Positions 39,330 to 50,417 of a stretch of DNA of 64,000 nt are shown one piece after another (position 1 is the first letter of the stretch; every line of letters begins with the position of its first letter). The translations under genes were made by a program, and so were the position numbers. The DNA lies in contig JAHCLO010000019.1 of assembly GCA_026125285.1 (NCBI GenBank), positions 1 through 64,000 of the forward strand, in the 5' to 3' direction. This DNA comes from Verrucomicrobiia bacterium. Lineage in GTDB: Bacteria; Verrucomicrobiota; Verrucomicrobiia; Limisphaerales; JADLHS01. The notes under the pieces are model-generated. The model worked only from the letters and a program-made list of their open reading frames with translations. It was not told the DNA's origin and searched no databases.

Positions 39330-41543
39330 TCACGTCTTCCGCACCTGAAATACTGCCAGGCAAACCTGCGCTTGCGCCGGGTCATTCAAGCACAGGGCGC
39401 CCTCGCGGATGCGCGGGGTGGGTTCGCCCTCCAGGCGCAGGGGGAATTGTTCGCTCAGTCGTTTGGCGTAACTTGCGAAATCCGCGCAGCCCTCCGCCCG
39501 CAGTTGGGTGCGGTTGATCAGGCGCAGCCAACCGGTGCTGCCTTGACACGTTTGTCGCATCAATTCCACCGCCAAACGCCCCATCGTGTAACGGGGATTG
39601 ATCTCAACCATGGGCTTGAGGCGGGACGCGCCCGCGGCATCGCGATAGACCAACGCATCAATGCCGAGCGGGCCAAGATAATCGGCGCGCCGGAGTTCAG
39701 TCTCAAGCACCACAAAAATGTCGGCGTAAAGTTGCAGTAGTCGCCGTGAGATGTCGGGTGGTGCGTGAAATCGCGCCACCACTTTGGCGGGAATGCGCGT
39801 GCGGTAATGCGGCTCCGCCCAATTGCCAACAAACTGCCCTTTGGCGTCGTTGAGCAACCCGGTGTAACCGCACAGCTTCAAACCCGCGGGCGTCATTTCC
39901 AGTTGCACGGAGAAATCGAGTTCGCGCTCCAGCCATGGCTCGATGATCAAAGTCTGTCCCCTTGCCAGCGTGCGAGTCATCCAGCAGTGATGCGACTCCA
40001 GCACGACCGGCTCAAGGAGCCGCACCGCGTTGCTGCCGGCGAGGCCAATGGCTTGTTTGACCACGATCTTGTGGTGGCCGCGTGCGCGGATGGTGGCAAT
40101 GGCTTCGAGCGCCGCGGTGATTGAGTTCACTGACACACCGATTTCATGTTCCGGGCAAAGCCAGTTCTGGATTGGCGATGGCCGATTGCCGATTGCTGAT
40201 TCGCGAGAGTGAGGATCGTCATCGCCCCTCCTGCCAGTGAGAAGCCTGCGGAGCAACTCGGCGCTCCAGGCTTTGGAGTAAAGCTGCGCGATGCCGGGAT
40301 TGAACCGCTGTTCGGGCGAGCGGTCTTCCGCGGTGAGATTGGCGAAGAGCGGGGCCAACAGCTCCACGCTGTCCGGGGACCAGGCCCACGGACGCAGGCG
40401 GCCGAGCTTGCGAGACGTGAACTCTCGAAGCGCGACTGTGCGAGGTGCGCCTGCCGCAGGCCACAGGTGCTTGCCGACCGGCTGCGGTTGGGTCTGCGAC
40501 CACCGCCGCGCTCCATCGCTTATCTCTACAAACTCCGGCAGGGGGAAGCCCGCCTGCTTGATGCGGCTGAGGAACTCCACCGAAGGTCGCCGTTCCACGA
40601 GGACGATGTCGTCCTGGCGGCAGAGGAACTGCGGCAGGTTCTCCAAATCACGCGCCAACTGAGCTTGATGCTTTGAAGGATTGAACGCTTTTCCTTCCGC
40701 GATGCGGCCTTCGGCAAAGGGGTTAAATACAAACACACTGGGAGTACGGCCCTTGGATTGCGAATACACCTCGAGTTCCGCGATGAATTGCGGATCAAAT
40801 CCCGCGGCGCGACGCCCTTCGGCATTAAGGGAAAAACCTTTCGCGCGCTGCGGTGAGAGCGGGAATTTCAGGGTGCGGCAAAACGCTTCCCAGTCGCTTT
40901 CGTCCGGCTGCTTCCAGCGCCGGAACCACTTCAAGCCATAAGCGACATGGCCGATTTCGTCGCGATAGATTCGCTCAAGCAGCCTGGCAGTTTCCGCGTC
41001 GCCGACCTGGCCAAAGCCCCGCGCGAAGTGCCGGGCGAAATCCAGATTCGCCTGCTCGAACGTGAGGCAAAGCCCGGCCACGTAATCAATGGGATTCTCC
41101 ATCGGCGCGACACAACGCCAGAAGTAACCGCTGACCGGCAACTCACCGAACGCGATGCCGCAGGATTTCATGCGTGCCAGATAGAGTCGTGTGTGTGCCT
41201 GTTCATCCTTGAGCGTTTGAAAGACGCCTTTGCGAAACGCGACCGGTGCGTCGGGAAATTTCAGCAGCACCAGCGCCATCAGTTCAGTGGCCAGCAGTTC
41301 GTGATTCGCGAAGAAGTGCAGGAGCTTGCCGCGCTCGCGTTCCTGTTCGAGGCGATGCAAGCCGGGAAAATCCGACCGCGCCGAACCGTGGGTTTTGAAA
41401 CGCAACTGCCTTGGCCGACCCGGGGCGTCAGGCGAAAGAATCGCCTCGCCTGGCCGTTCATCGGTGATCACGTCCGGGCACTGGAGTTTTTCCTCCAGCG
41501 TCGTGGCGAACAGGACACGCTCCGCAAATTCACGTAGTTCCAT
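39330..41543 (-). CDS. Fused DUF455 ferritin-like / ATP-grasp protein
   Basis: 737 residues from ATG 41543. Residues about 1-260 are a DUF455 ferritin-like di-iron domain with ligands at Glu114-His117 (DEQAH), Glu163 (FEQAN) and Glu196-His199 (DEIGH). Residues about 300-730 look like an ATP-grasp domain: HHKIVVKQAIGLAGSNAVRL with Lys496, IIEPWLERELDF, and VEINPRYTMGRL (Glu647, Asn649, Arg651). Residues 447-460 (SRESAIGNRPSPIQ) look like a translated short repeat. The activity is unknown. Predicted is a diiron oxygenase or oxidase activity joined to a carboxylate-amine (or similar) ligase. Confidence 0.8.
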   Translation of the reverse strand: MELREFAERVLFATTLEEKLQCPDVITDERPGEAILSPDAPGRPRQLRFKTHGSARSDFPGLHRLEQERERGKLLHFFANHELLATELMALVLLKFPDAPVAFRKGVFQTLKDEQAHTRLYLARMKSCGIAFGELPVSGYFWRCVAPMENPIDYVAGLCLTFEQANLDFARHFARGFGQVGDAETARLLERIYRDEIGHVAYGLKWFRRWKQPDESDWEAFCRTLKFPLSPQRAKGFSLNAEGRRAAGFDPQFIAELEVYSQSKGRTPSVFVFNPFAEGRIAEGKAFNPSKHQAQLARDLENLPQFLCRQDDIVLVERRPSVEFLSRIKQAGFPLPEFVEISDGARRWSQTQPQPVGKHLWPAAGAPRTVALREFTSRKLGRLRPWAWSPDSVELLAPLFANLTAEDRSPEQRFNPGIAQLYSKAWSAELLRRLLTGRRGDDDPHSRESAIGNRPSPIQNWLCPEHEIGVSVNSITAALEAIATIRARGHHKIVVKQAIGLAGSNAVRLLEPVVLESHHCWMTRTLARGQTLIIEPWLERELDFSVQLEMTPAGLKLCGYTGLLNDAKGQFVGNWAEPHYRTRIPAKVVARFHAPPDISRRLLQLYADIFVVLETELRRADYLGPLGIDALVYRDAAGASRLKPMVEINPRYTMGRLAVELMRQTCQGSTGWLRLINRTQLRAEGCADFASYAKRLSEQFPLRLEGEPTPRIREGALCLNDPAQAQVCLAVFQVRKT

Positions 41544-41883
41544 AACCGCGAGAACACTGTGTGGAACGGTGCTCGCAAAAGCGAGCCTCCGTTGTCGCAA
41601 GCAAGCCGGCGACTGGACGCGGACGAGGCGACAAATTGAACCCAACCGCAACAGCGATGGCAGGAGTTCTGCCCTCGGTCAAGTTCTCGCCAGCCAGAAT
41701 AATGGGCTGGCCGAGGGATATCGAGCACCAGAGCCTCCATGCGTTGGTGGCTCCCAGCCACGTGTGTTACTGCTGGCCGGGCTACCGCCGCATTGGAAAC
41801 CAACTGGCTGCACCTCCGCGGGCCGCCGGGCGTCGGTTCGATCCTCCAGGCACATGCAGCACCGGCTGGTTGTCTCACTCTTG

Positions 41884-42057
41884 CTAGAACACCACACGAT
41901 AAAACCGCATGCCGGTCGGCGGCTCGGGATCGGTCCATTCACGGGAACCGTCCGGCAACGTTTGTGGTGTACCCGGAAGCGGAAACCAGTTTTGGAGGTC
42001 GGTGGAAAACTCAGGAAAGGCTTCCGTGCCCGCATCCGTCCCCAAGCGGAATTGGAA
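41884..42057 (-). pseudogene. C-terminal fragment of a secreted protein (minus strand)
   Basis: The frame reads FQFRLGTDAGTEAFPEFSTD, LQNWFPLPGTPQTLPDGSRE, WTDPEPPTGMRFYRVVF then stop, and is closed upstream by a TGA. The pattern STDLQNWFPLPG...FYRV is the usual C-terminal end of verrucomicrobial secreted repeat proteins (compare 50340-50417). No start or upstream coding remains. Confidence 0.65.
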
Positions 42058-42344
42058 TCACCTATCAAGGCGGCACCGGCAACGACGTGGTGTTGCGCCA
42101 ATGGACGCCTACCACCAATTCCTTTCCCGTGCGACTGACGCTTCAGCCCAAGGACGCCAATTGGGTGACGCTCAGTTGGTCGTCCTACGCCTCGGGTTAT
42201 CAACTGCAATACTGCACCAATCTCGCCACCGGCGTCTGGTGGGCCGCCGGTCCGCCTTCGGGCATCAACGACGGCACGAACATCGTCGTGAATGAAATGC
42301 CGATCAACCTGCCGCAACGCTTCTTCCGCGTGGTTCAGCCGTAG
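42057..42344 (+). pseudogene. C-terminal fragment of an autotransporter-repeat-type protein
   Basis: The frame begins abruptly with ITYQGGTGNDVVLRQW. It continues VRLTLQPKDANWVTLSWSSY, QYCTNLATGVWWAAGPPSG, and INLPQRFFRVVQP then stop. TYQGGTGNDVVL matches the end of the intact gene at 46281-50417 (ITYQGGDGNDVVLV). No start codon or signal peptide belongs to it; the sequence upstream is non-homologous. Confidence 0.7.
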
Positions 42345-46280: not shown

Positions 46281-49200
46281 ATGAAAATGACTACTCTGCT
46301 GCGCCGCGCCATCCTCGCGTTGTGGCTCTCGCTGTGGCCGAGCCACGCCGCCACCTACACCTGGACCGGCGCGGGCTTCTTCGGCAACCAGGATTATCTC
46401 TGGAGCAATCCCAACAACTGGGCCGGCCTCGCCGCCCCGTCGCCCGGTGAGGCCAACGTCACCATCGTCTTCCCCAACAATTCCGCGCCGAAAGTCACCA
46501 CCAACGACCTCGTGGGTTTGAGCGTGTCGGCGATTCAGTTTCAGGGGTCGAATTACGTCGTGCATGGCAAGCCCGCCGGCAACCCGCTGGCGCTCTACAG
46601 CACCGGTCTTGGCGGCTGGAGCCTGATCGCCAGTCTCAACGGCAACTATTTCGCCGGCACGTCGCCGCTGGTGTTGAGCAACAGCGGCTCCGTGAGCGTG
46701 GCCAGTGGCGCGGTCTTGAGCGTTCTTTCCGGGATCAGCGGGGCCGGCAACCTGACGAAGTTCAATTCTGGCACGCTGCGCTACGCCGCCGGCGCGGCCA
46801 ACACCTTCACCGGCACCACCACCGTCAGCGACGGCACGCTGGACTTGAACAACGGCACGCTCTTCCCCGCGGCTACCTACGTCGCCATCGCGGGGCCGCT
46901 GGTCATCGGCAGCACGAACATGAGCCTCGCGCCGCAGGTCCGGTTGCTCCAGAACGACCAGATCGCCGACGCGCAACCGGTGATGATTTACGAGAACGGC
47001 CGACTGTCGTTGAACGGCAAGAACGACACCGTCGGTGCCCTGACGATGCGCGATGGCGCGGACATCAGCACCGGCGTGGGCGGCGGCTCGAGTTCGCCCG
47101 GCGTGCTGACGCTGCTGGGCAACGTGACTTGCACGAATTCGCCGCACGCCAGTTATGCCAGCATCCGCGGCCTGCTGGACCTGGGCCTGTTCACCCGGAC
47201 CTTTCACGTGGAGAGCTGGCTGCGCGTTTACGCGAACGTATCGGGCGGCAGCATCTTCAATCCCGGCATCACCAAGACCGGTTCGGGCAGCTTGCAGTTC
47301 ATGTATCTCACAAACAGCTACACCGGTCCCACCCTCGTCGAACAGGGAATGTTGCACGTCTCGGGCGGTGTTTCGCCGCTGGGCGCGACGAACGCCGGCA
47401 CCACGGTTGCCAACAACGCTGAACTTTATCTCGAAAACGTCAACCTCGATGCGGAGGCGCTGACCTTGAACGGCAGCGGCTTCACGGTGCTGGAGTTCCG
47501 CGGCTCCAACGTGTGCTCCGGCCCGATTACCTTGAACGGCGACTGCCGAATGTCCAACCAGGATTGGTTCGGGGAGACGCATGACTTGACTTTCAGCGGC
47601 GCGATCAGCGGCACGGGCAGCCTGCGAAAAACCGGCAATGGCAACCTCCGTTTTACCGGCTTCGGCGGCAACACGTTCACGGGCGGGTTGTTTTGCCAGG
47701 AAGGGTGGACCTTCTTGAGCAAGAGCGCCTCCGCGCCCGCGCTGTCCGGGCCGCTGGTGATTGGCCGCGAAGGCGAACAGTTTCAGTGGGTTTTCGTCGA
47801 AATCACGGAGATCAACCAGATTCCCAATTCCCTGCCCATCACGTTGCTGGATCACGGCTCGCTTCACACCCTGGCCGGCGTCGCGGAAACCATCGGGCCG
47901 GTGACGCTCAAAGGCGGCCTCATTTACGCGGTGGGAACCATGACGCTGGCCGGCAACGTCACCAATCAGCTTTCGGCCAACAGCATCGGCTCGCTCATCG
48001 GCGAAATCGTGCTGCCGGCCACGCGGGTGATCCACTGTGATGCAGACAGCACGTTGCAGGCGGGTGGCAACTGGGCCGGGGCGGGGGGCGTGACCAAGAC
48101 CGGGCCGGGCGAACTGCGCTTCACCCACGCTCACACTTACTCCGGCACGACACTCGTGCAGGAAGGAACGTTGACCGTTGAATCCAACGGTCGCCCCGGC
48201 TCCTCCGCCGCGGGCACGACCGTTGAAGCCAACGGCACACTGTTTCTTAAGGGTGCCAGCGTGACCAACGAATCACTGGTGCTTCAGGGCGGCGGCAACG
48301 GCGTCGCGCTCGCGTATCACAACACCAACGTCTGGAACGGTTCGGTGGAACTCCACGGCGCCGTCACCGTCAAGGCCGAGCCTGTCGCCCGCCTTTCCCT
48401 GTTTGGCGCCATCAGCGGCCCGGGCGGATTGAATCATACCGGCGACGGGACATTGATTCTGGCCGGCAACACCGACAACACCTTCGCCGGCCCGCTTCAT
48501 TGCGACGCGGGCAATCTCATTCTGAACAAATTCAGCACGGTGACAGCGGTACCCGGTGATCTGGTCATCGGCCTTCCGACCAACGGCGCGCCCGCCGCCA
48601 CCGTGGAGGTGCAAAGTCCTTACCAATTCAAAAGCTCCGGCTTTCCCAACCAGCGCGTCACCGTCAACCCAACCGGCAAGTTCCTCTCCGGGACTTACGA
48701 CCAAACCATCAGCAATCTGGACCTGCGCGACGGCTGGGTGGATGCCATCGGCGGCAACCTGGTCCTGATCCGCCACTTGACCGTCGAGGCGGCGGGGACC
48801 GGAAATTCGTATTTTTTCGGCAAAATGACGCTGCTCTATGGAAACGACGGCGATCATCAGTTTGAAGTACGCAGCAACGCGGTCTGCTGGATGTTTGCCG
48901 ACATCCGCGAAGATCCCTTTACCCAGCACCTGACCAAAACCGGCACCGGCACGCTCCTTCTGTCCGGGAGCAATACGTTCAGCGGTTCGTTCACCATCAA
49001 CTCGGGAACGGTGTATGCCGGCGGCGCGCAACCGTTTGGCACGATGGCCGGCCCGACCATTGTCAATCAAGGCGGCACGCTCGCGCCCATCTCCATGACC
49101 GCGGGCGAACCCATTTTGCTGGCAGGCAACGGCCATGCCAACGAGGGCGCGCTCCACATCAGCGGCACCAATATCTTCACTGGCCCGGTCACGCTCGCGG

Positions 49201-50417
49201 CCAACACGATCATCCAGACGGATACCAACGCGATTCTCACGCTGGCCGGAGCGGTTGGAGGTCCGGGCGGCTTCACCAAACACGGTCCGGGCGCGATGCA
49301 ATTGCTCGGCTCCCAGGCAAACACCTACGCCGGCCCCACGCTCGTGGCCGACGGCAAACTCGAACTCGGCAAGACCAACGTCGTCGCCGTGCCTGGACCG
49401 CTCATCATCGCCGGACCGAACAGTGCCAGCCTGGTGCGCCTGTTGCAGTCGGAACAGATCGGTGACAACAGTCCGGTGGTGTTGCAGGACACCGGCTGGA
49501 TCTCGCTCGACGGCCAGAACGAAACGATCGGTTCGCTGGCCGGCCTCGGCGCCGTCTTCCAATCCGGCGGCCAGACGGGTTTGCTCACCGTGGGCGGCAA
49601 CCAAACCTCCACCACCTTCCAGGGCACCATTCTCGGCGGCGGCGGGTTGACCAAGGTCGGCAACGGCACGTTCACCCTCACCGGGAACAACCTGTACACC
49701 GGCGTCACCACCGTGACGGACGGCACGCTCATGGTGATGGGCGAGCAACCCCAAAGTCAGATTACCCTCCTCACTGGTGGACGCCTGGGCGGCAGCGGGC
49801 GCGTCGGCCACATCAGCGACCTCAACGGCCACGTCGCCCCTGGCGCGAGCACCGGCATCCTGGTATGCAGCAACTACTCCACGTTCACACCGGAGAATCT
49901 GTTGGAGATTGAAATCAATGGTCCGACGCCCGGCAGCCGTTACGATCAATTGCAGGTCCTCGGCAACATTCTCCTGATCGGCGGCACGCTGCAGTTGACA
50001 GTGAACACCACCGGCGAGGCGGGGAACGAATATGTCATCATCAGGAATGATGGTCCCAACCCCGTGACCGGCAGCTTCACTGGCCTGCCGGAAGGCGCAA
50101 TGTTCAGCAACAACGGCGCCGTGTTCCAAATCACGTACCAGGGCGGCGATGGCAACGACGTGGTGCTCGTGCAGCAGCCAGCAGGCGGGGCGCTCCAGAT
50201 CACCGGCGGCTGGATGCTGCCGGACGGCGTTTTTCAACTCACCGCCCAAGTCGTGCCCCACGCCACTTACGGCGTCGAAGCCACCACCAACCTGATTACC
50301 CCCGTCGTCTGGACCTTCCTGGGCAACGCCGCCGCCAACGCGGCCGGGCAGTTGCAGTTCACGGATCCCGACGCCCCGCTCCACCCCACGCGCTTTTACC
50401 GCCTGACCCATCCGTGA
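46281..50417 (+). CDS. Giant autotransporter-associated beta-strand repeat protein
   Basis: The 1378-residue secreted protein has a signal peptide (MKMTTLLRRAILALWLSLWP, then SHAATYTW) and is built from many Gly/Asn/Thr-rich repeats: TKTGSGSLQFMYLTNSYTGP, LTKFNSGTLRYAAGAANTFT, TKTGTGTLLLSGSNTFSGSF, LTKVGNGTFTLTGNNLYTGV. These are PATR-type beta-helix strand repeats (autotransporter-associated repeat). No autotransporter barrel is present; the C-terminus (FQITYQGGDGNDVVLVQ, then TFLGNAAANAAG...FYRLTHP) is the usual verrucomicrobial tail. It probably forms a surface fibre or adhesin. The upstream region carries a possible regulator site and a hairpin. Confidence 0.92.
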   Translation: MKMTTLLRRAILALWLSLWPSHAATYTWTGAGFFGNQDYLWSNPNNWAGLAAPSPGEANVTIVFPNNSAPKVTTNDLVGLSVSAIQFQGSNYVVHGKPAGNPLALYSTGLGGWSLIASLNGNYFAGTSPLVLSNSGSVSVASGAVLSVLSGISGAGNLTKFNSGTLRYAAGAANTFTGTTTVSDGTLDLNNGTLFPAATYVAIAGPLVIGSTNMSLAPQVRLLQNDQIADAQPVMIYENGRLSLNGKNDTVGALTMRDGADISTGVGGGSSSPGVLTLLGNVTCTNSPHASYASIRGLLDLGLFTRTFHVESWLRVYANVSGGSIFNPGITKTGSGSLQFMYLTNSYTGPTLVEQGMLHVSGGVSPLGATNAGTTVANNAELYLENVNLDAEALTLNGSGFTVLEFRGSNVCSGPITLNGDCRMSNQDWFGETHDLTFSGAISGTGSLRKTGNGNLRFTGFGGNTFTGGLFCQEGWTFLSKSASAPALSGPLVIGREGEQFQWVFVEITEINQIPNSLPITLLDHGSLHTLAGVAETIGPVTLKGGLIYAVGTMTLAGNVTNQLSANSIGSLIGEIVLPATRVIHCDADSTLQAGGNWAGAGGVTKTGPGELRFTHAHTYSGTTLVQEGTLTVESNGRPGSSAAGTTVEANGTLFLKGASVTNESLVLQGGGNGVALAYHNTNVWNGSVELHGAVTVKAEPVARLSLFGAISGPGGLNHTGDGTLILAGNTDNTFAGPLHCDAGNLILNKFSTVTAVPGDLVIGLPTNGAPAATVEVQSPYQFKSSGFPNQRVTVNPTGKFLSGTYDQTISNLDLRDGWVDAIGGNLVLIRHLTVEAAGTGNSYFFGKMTLLYGNDGDHQFEVRSNAVCWMFADIREDPFTQHLTKTGTGTLLLSGSNTFSGSFTINSGTVYAGGAQPFGTMAGPTIVNQGGTLAPISMTAGEPILLAGNGHANEGALHISGTNIFTGPVTLAANTIIQTDTNAILTLAGAVGGPGGFTKHGPGAMQLLGSQANTYAGPTLVADGKLELGKTNVVAVPGPLIIAGPNSASLVRLLQSEQIGDNSPVVLQDTGWISLDGQNETIGSLAGLGAVFQSGGQTGLLTVGGNQTSTTFQGTILGGGGLTKVGNGTFTLTGNNLYTGVTTVTDGTLMVMGEQPQSQITLLTGGRLGGSGRVGHISDLNGHVAPGASTGILVCSNYSTFTPENLLEIEINGPTPGSRYDQLQVLGNILLIGGTLQLTVNTTGEAGNEYVIIRNDGPNPVTGSFTGLPEGAMFSNNGAVFQITYQGGDGNDVVLVQQPAGGALQITGGWMLPDGVFQLTAQVVPHATYGVEATTNLITPVVWTFLGNAAANAAGQLQFTDPDAPLHPTRFYRLTHP

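Follow-up and report, generated by a model that had tools for sequence, protein, structure and literature searches.

The genes for BesA (8yi6) and for the Streptomyces ligase 8ynd stand alone within biosynthetic clusters. The pheganomycin peptide ligase PGM1 (3wvr/3wvq) is likewise encoded by a stand-alone gene of a biosynthetic cluster (PMC8939145). In mangotoxin biosynthesis, the HDO di-iron oxidase MboA works with the ATP-grasp amino-acid ligases MboC/MboD (PMC13185094). DUF455 (PF04305) is a family without assigned function, and the stand-alone members that we examined are 275-377 aa long and carry no ligase domain.

We analysed a 64,000-nt stretch of a Verrucomicrobiia contig (the window), which contains a gene whose single 737-aa open reading frame joins a DUF455 domain to a predicted ligase of the PGM1 type of fold. 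As in the mangotoxin system, a di-iron protein is paired with an ATP-grasp ligase of amino-acid ligase fold; however, HDO is another di-iron family, and the separate, clustered genes of that system are replaced here by one polypeptide. Unlike PGM1/BesA-type peptide ligases, the fusion gene lies outside a biosynthetic cluster, with no conserved neighbours. A literature search for DUF455 together with ATP-grasp found no paper describing the fusion.

Folds and predicted active sites of the two halves

The frame occupies positions 39330-41543 of the minus strand, with an ATG at 41543 and a stop codon at 39330-39332. In almost all full-length homologs the aligned start is the same, usually an ATG, which gives no support to a longer TTG start at 41651. 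The features of the gene, all on the minus strand, are as follows.

39330-41543, minus: entire fusion gene (737 aa), with a start position shared by homologs
41412-41543, minus: N-terminal leader of DUF455, residues 1-44, remnants retained in short forms
40782-41447, minus: DUF455 (PF04305) match, residues 33-254, Pfam E 6.3e-47, identical coordinates in the genome search
40911-41348, minus: predicted ferritin-like four-helix bundle, residues 66-211 (AlphaFold2 pLDDT 90, fold matches, invariant ligands)
41298-41300, 41202-41204 and 41193-41195, minus: predicted di-iron ligands E82, E114 and H117
41055-41057, 40956-40958 and 40947-40949, minus: predicted di-iron ligands E163, E196 and H199
40509-40757, minus: predicted pre-ATP-grasp subdomain, residues 263-345 (about), from PF18604 in homologs and a structure alignment starting at residue 263-268
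40419-40508, minus: variable linker, residues 346-375, with alignment gaps and mostly low confidence (pLDDT <50 at 349-369)
39333-40418, minus: predicted ATP-grasp subdomain, residues 376-737, from structure matches and invariant residues
40272-40274, 40056-40058 and 39657-39659, minus: putative ATP-grasp residues K424, K496 and D629
39603-39605 and 39597-39599, minus: putative ATP-grasp residues E647 and N649

The DUF455 match scores 160.7 bits against a Pfam gathering cut-off of 34.3. AlphaFold2 folds the N-terminal half into a confident helical bundle (pLDDT 90, pTM 0.89), and its nearest solved folds, among the matches listed, are a Dps-like protein, a mini-bacterioferritin, bacterioferritins, aldehyde-deformylating oxygenases and rubrerythrin (Z 14.0-15.6). 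Helical bundles yield inflated Z values on their own, and the ferritin-like argument therefore rests on the ligands; Foldseek, given the bundle alone, reaches no better than E 0.04, and sequence comparison of the DUF455 half with solved structures returned none that is close. Six ligands, E82, E114, H117, E163, E196 and H199, are invariant in 43 fused homologs and also in five stand-alone DUF455 proteins from Alphaproteobacteria and Geobacillus (Pseudomonadota and Bacillota; 20-31% identity), which share the profile match and the N-terminal leader as well. Their arrangement, E82, E114-x-x-H117, E163 and E196-x-x-H199, follows the bacterioferritin order, near its spacing. The four-helix bundle and the ExxH pairs of ferritin-like di-iron proteins are both present, and the di-iron centre itself is a predicted one. 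The HDO profile PF14518 reached an E-value of only 0.085, in 3 of 30 homologs, and neither HDO nor MiaE folds are among the fold matches listed for the bundle.

Pfam recognises nothing beyond DUF455 in the 737-aa protein and misses the ligase half (about residues 264-737); an NCBIfam search of the protein gave no match. Among 30 homologs, PF18604 (pre-ATP-grasp) was found in six, with a best E-value of 1.7e-4, and ATP-grasp_3 matched two weakly. Similarity of the ligase half to solved structures is marginal by sequence, and SAOUHSC_02373 of S. aureus is the only PDB sequence match of the ligase profile (E 0.03). Structure is decisive. Foldseek places the C-terminal half at an E-value of about 1e-13 to the Streptomyces peptide ligase and PGM1, and residues 263-737 align with PGM1 at Z 25.9 (376 residues, 3.2 A), followed by the Streptomyces peptide ligase (Z 24.3), BesA (22.6) and SAOUHSC_02373 (21.6), with PurK-type ATP-grasp proteins well below these peptide and amino-acid ligases (Z 17.8 and lower). 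The predicted model thus makes the C-terminal half a pre-ATP-grasp plus ATP-grasp ligase, with the fold and domain order of PGM1, BesA and 8ynd. Identity to these three is only 13-16%, so the likeness is one of fold. The same fold is shared with SAOUHSC_02373 / LdmS (L-Asp-L-Met ligase, NF047900), but the window protein has no match to the LdmS family model. K424, K496, E535, D629, E647, N649 and R651 are invariant in the 43 fused homologs; they include two lysines (K424 and K496) and a D629/E647/N649 triad at standard ATP-grasp positions, from which we infer ATP-site and metal-binding roles.

The first-pass annotation had placed a DUF455 di-iron domain and an ATP-grasp-like domain in one frame, and both folds are indeed predicted within the single frame. 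All of its quoted motifs are present (E114-Q-A-H117, F162-E163-Q-A-N166, E196-I-G-H199, K496 and E647-I-N649-P-R651), but its list missed the helix A ligand E82, the first ATP-grasp lysine K424, D629 and the pre-ATP-grasp subdomain. Its description of a di-iron oxidase joined to a ligase holds at the level of fold and conserved ligands. Neither of the two outcomes that it named as refuting came about: the C-terminal half has the predicted structure of an ATP-grasp protein, and the single frame recurs across independent genomes. From their residues, both halves look active. The full-length model, at pLDDT 87.9 with a pTM of 0.84 across the two domains, suggests by its high pTM that the two halves are held in a fixed arrangement, and the protein is probably soluble.

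An old fusion and its short forms

In a first sample of the order, the fusion was found in 33 of 93 genera, with some matches C-terminal only. The ligase profile detects 88 of 167 near-complete genomes of the order, almost always in the DUF455-ligase architecture, and 22 of 387 genomes across a phylum sample, in several families and a distant class; all 21 strong DUF455 matches in the phylum sample lie in frames of 648-782 aa that also carry the ligase. Distances of the two halves correlate (r 0.91), and no permutation reached this value. Purifying selection acts on the two halves (dN/dS about 0.07-0.28), more strongly on the di-iron half. Because the catalytic residues are invariant in 43 homologs and selection is purifying, the frame and its motifs are not chance. 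The fusion is genuine and ancient.

Five genomes of the order encode short forms of 476-520 aa, in which remnants of the DUF455 leader are joined to the start of the pre-ATP-grasp subdomain at about residue 264-268 and the four-helix bundle is absent. The remnant in one of them, G097, reads MELRDLAEPVLFATTLDDKLQ. In each of the five, none of 200 shuffles reached the observed resemblance to the leader; the ATP-site residues checked (K424, K496, D629, E647 and N649) are all kept in 5/5, and no separate DUF455 gene was found in these genomes. In a tree of the C-terminal half, the short forms group as a single clade, whose two deepest nodes have support of 0.998 and 0.980. The leader belongs to DUF455, which makes the fused form the ancestral one; the bundle was lost in frame in one clade, with the ligase left intact. 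The loss demonstrates that the ligase half can be maintained where the di-iron step is gone.

Stand-alone relatives of the ligase occur in Bacteroidales, as hypothetical proteins of about 370-400 aa that match the ligase profile over its full length (hhalign 99.5%, E 2.7e-23) and lack the DUF455 leader. One of them matches the LdmS model NF047900 weakly (E 8.4e-8), at 31.4 bits far below the cut-off of 475. In Prevotella and Bacteroides, the stand-alone ligase gene stands divergent beside an AAA ATPase gene and nifJ. Weak DUF455 matches were also obtained from another family of the class, in proteins of about 450 aa, and were set aside because those that were read are different ferritin-like proteins. 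At three loci, proteins of about 450-510 aa with weak DUF455 matches, often several per genome, resemble a distinct and perhaps duplicated family of ferritin-like proteins.

Gene neighbourhood and oxygen respiration

Among 37 loci we found no conserved operon and no gene family near the gene that is common across lineages. In the window, the flanking genes encode Uma2 and GNAT proteins (other strand) and a response regulator (upstream), with no sign of an operon. An upstream frame at 41739-42344 (plus strand) resembles, by eye, the C-terminal end of a large repeat protein at 46281-50417 and may be a remnant. An aminopeptidase P-like gene (AMP_N plus M24, by Pfam at one locus) lies 3' of the fusion on the same strand at five loci of one clade, and in four of the five short-form genomes, also one clade, the gene immediately downstream of the ligase is miaA (tRNA dimethylallyltransferase). 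Neither was accepted as a conserved operon, each being confined to one clade and explicable by shared descent. Stand-alone DUF455 genes directly follow a peroxiredoxin gene in Sinorhizobium and Sphingomonas (L124:4435-5747 and L125:4426-5702).

A COX1 match (heme-copper oxidase) of about 400 bits or more is present in all 24 long-form genomes tested and in one of five short-form genomes. Of 35 near-complete genomes in the order that have no match to the protein, 10 lack such a COX1 match, compared with none of 22 long-form genomes (Fisher p 0.005), as raw genome counts that ignore phylogeny. With the short forms being one clade and the counts blind to descent, the pattern only fits an oxygen-dependent role; it is compatible with one and is not proof.

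Candidate functions of the fusion

We favor a bifunctional enzyme in which the ligase makes a small amide or dipeptide and the fused di-iron bundle adds an O2-dependent tailoring step, at a probability of roughly 0.6. The pre-ATP-grasp/ATP-grasp half would activate a carboxylate as an acyl phosphate with ATP-Mg and then couple it to an amine to give a small dipeptide-like amide, as PGM1, BesA and LdmS-type ligases do. The DUF455 bundle, with its predicted bacterioferritin-like di-iron site, would oxidise either the substrate or the product of the ligase with O2. The ligase would be the conserved core and the oxidative step an add-on, lost in one clade and absent from the Bacteroidales stand-alone relatives. 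The O2 chemistry, the order of the steps and the action of both sites on one pathway are inferred, and the two-step modification suggested by the first-pass annotation is likewise conjecture. The absence of conserved biosynthetic neighbours counts against this reading, as most ligase pathways have them, and so do the marginal sequence similarity to solved structures and the weak Foldseek value of the bundle.

The main alternative is that the bundle is an oxygen, redox or iron sensor, which would switch the ligase through a fixed domain contact without being catalytic. The pTM of 0.84 suggests such a fixed arrangement, and the persistence of the ligase alone in short forms and Bacteroidales is what one would expect if the bundle were a mere control element; however, no homolog has lost any of the bacterioferritin-like ligands and the bundle is the slower-evolving of the two halves, and we consider a sensor unlikely. 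Less probable again is a protective role, in which the bundle would detoxify peroxide or oxidise iron, in the manner of rubrerythrin or ferritin, to the benefit of the ligase or the cell. Such a role would agree with the peroxiredoxin genes adjoining stand-alone DUF455 and with the Dps-like protein, bacterioferritin and rubrerythrin among the nearest folds listed, but it gives no reason for a permanent fusion to a ligase, and at the fused loci examined, where the neighbours are only partly annotated, no adjoining peroxiredoxin gene was seen.

Modification of RNA or protein, for example at tRNA position 37, instead of a small molecule, is improbable. MiaE is a known di-iron tRNA hydroxylase, and miaA adjoins the short-form gene in 4/5 genomes; against this, the four linked genomes form one clade and therefore count as one event, the window genome's own miaA lies on another contig, miaA is near none of the long-form loci examined, and the miaA-linked clade has lost the di-iron domain. 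A joining of two genes by frame or assembly error, for which nothing was found in favor, is refuted because the single open frame recurs in many genera and independent assemblies.

Both halves have known folds, whereas the ligase family goes unrecognised by Pfam in the window protein and in Bacteroidales. New here are the short forms with in-frame loss of the bundle, the ligase-alone Bacteroidales proteins and the association of the long form with COX1. Returning to the bifunctional enzyme, a tentative and rather doubtful extension is that this cluster-free, single-chain oxidase-ligase supplies Verrucomicrobiota with a generally used, oxidised dipeptide-like metabolite, and that lineages with reduced O2 respiration make the unoxidised form by deleting the bundle only. 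In the natural bundle-deleted forms, the same ligase can readily be compared with its counterpart that retains the oxidative step. The permanent link between a di-iron domain and an amino-acid-ligase fold suggests that at least some DUF455 proteins take part in amino-acid or peptide chemistry.
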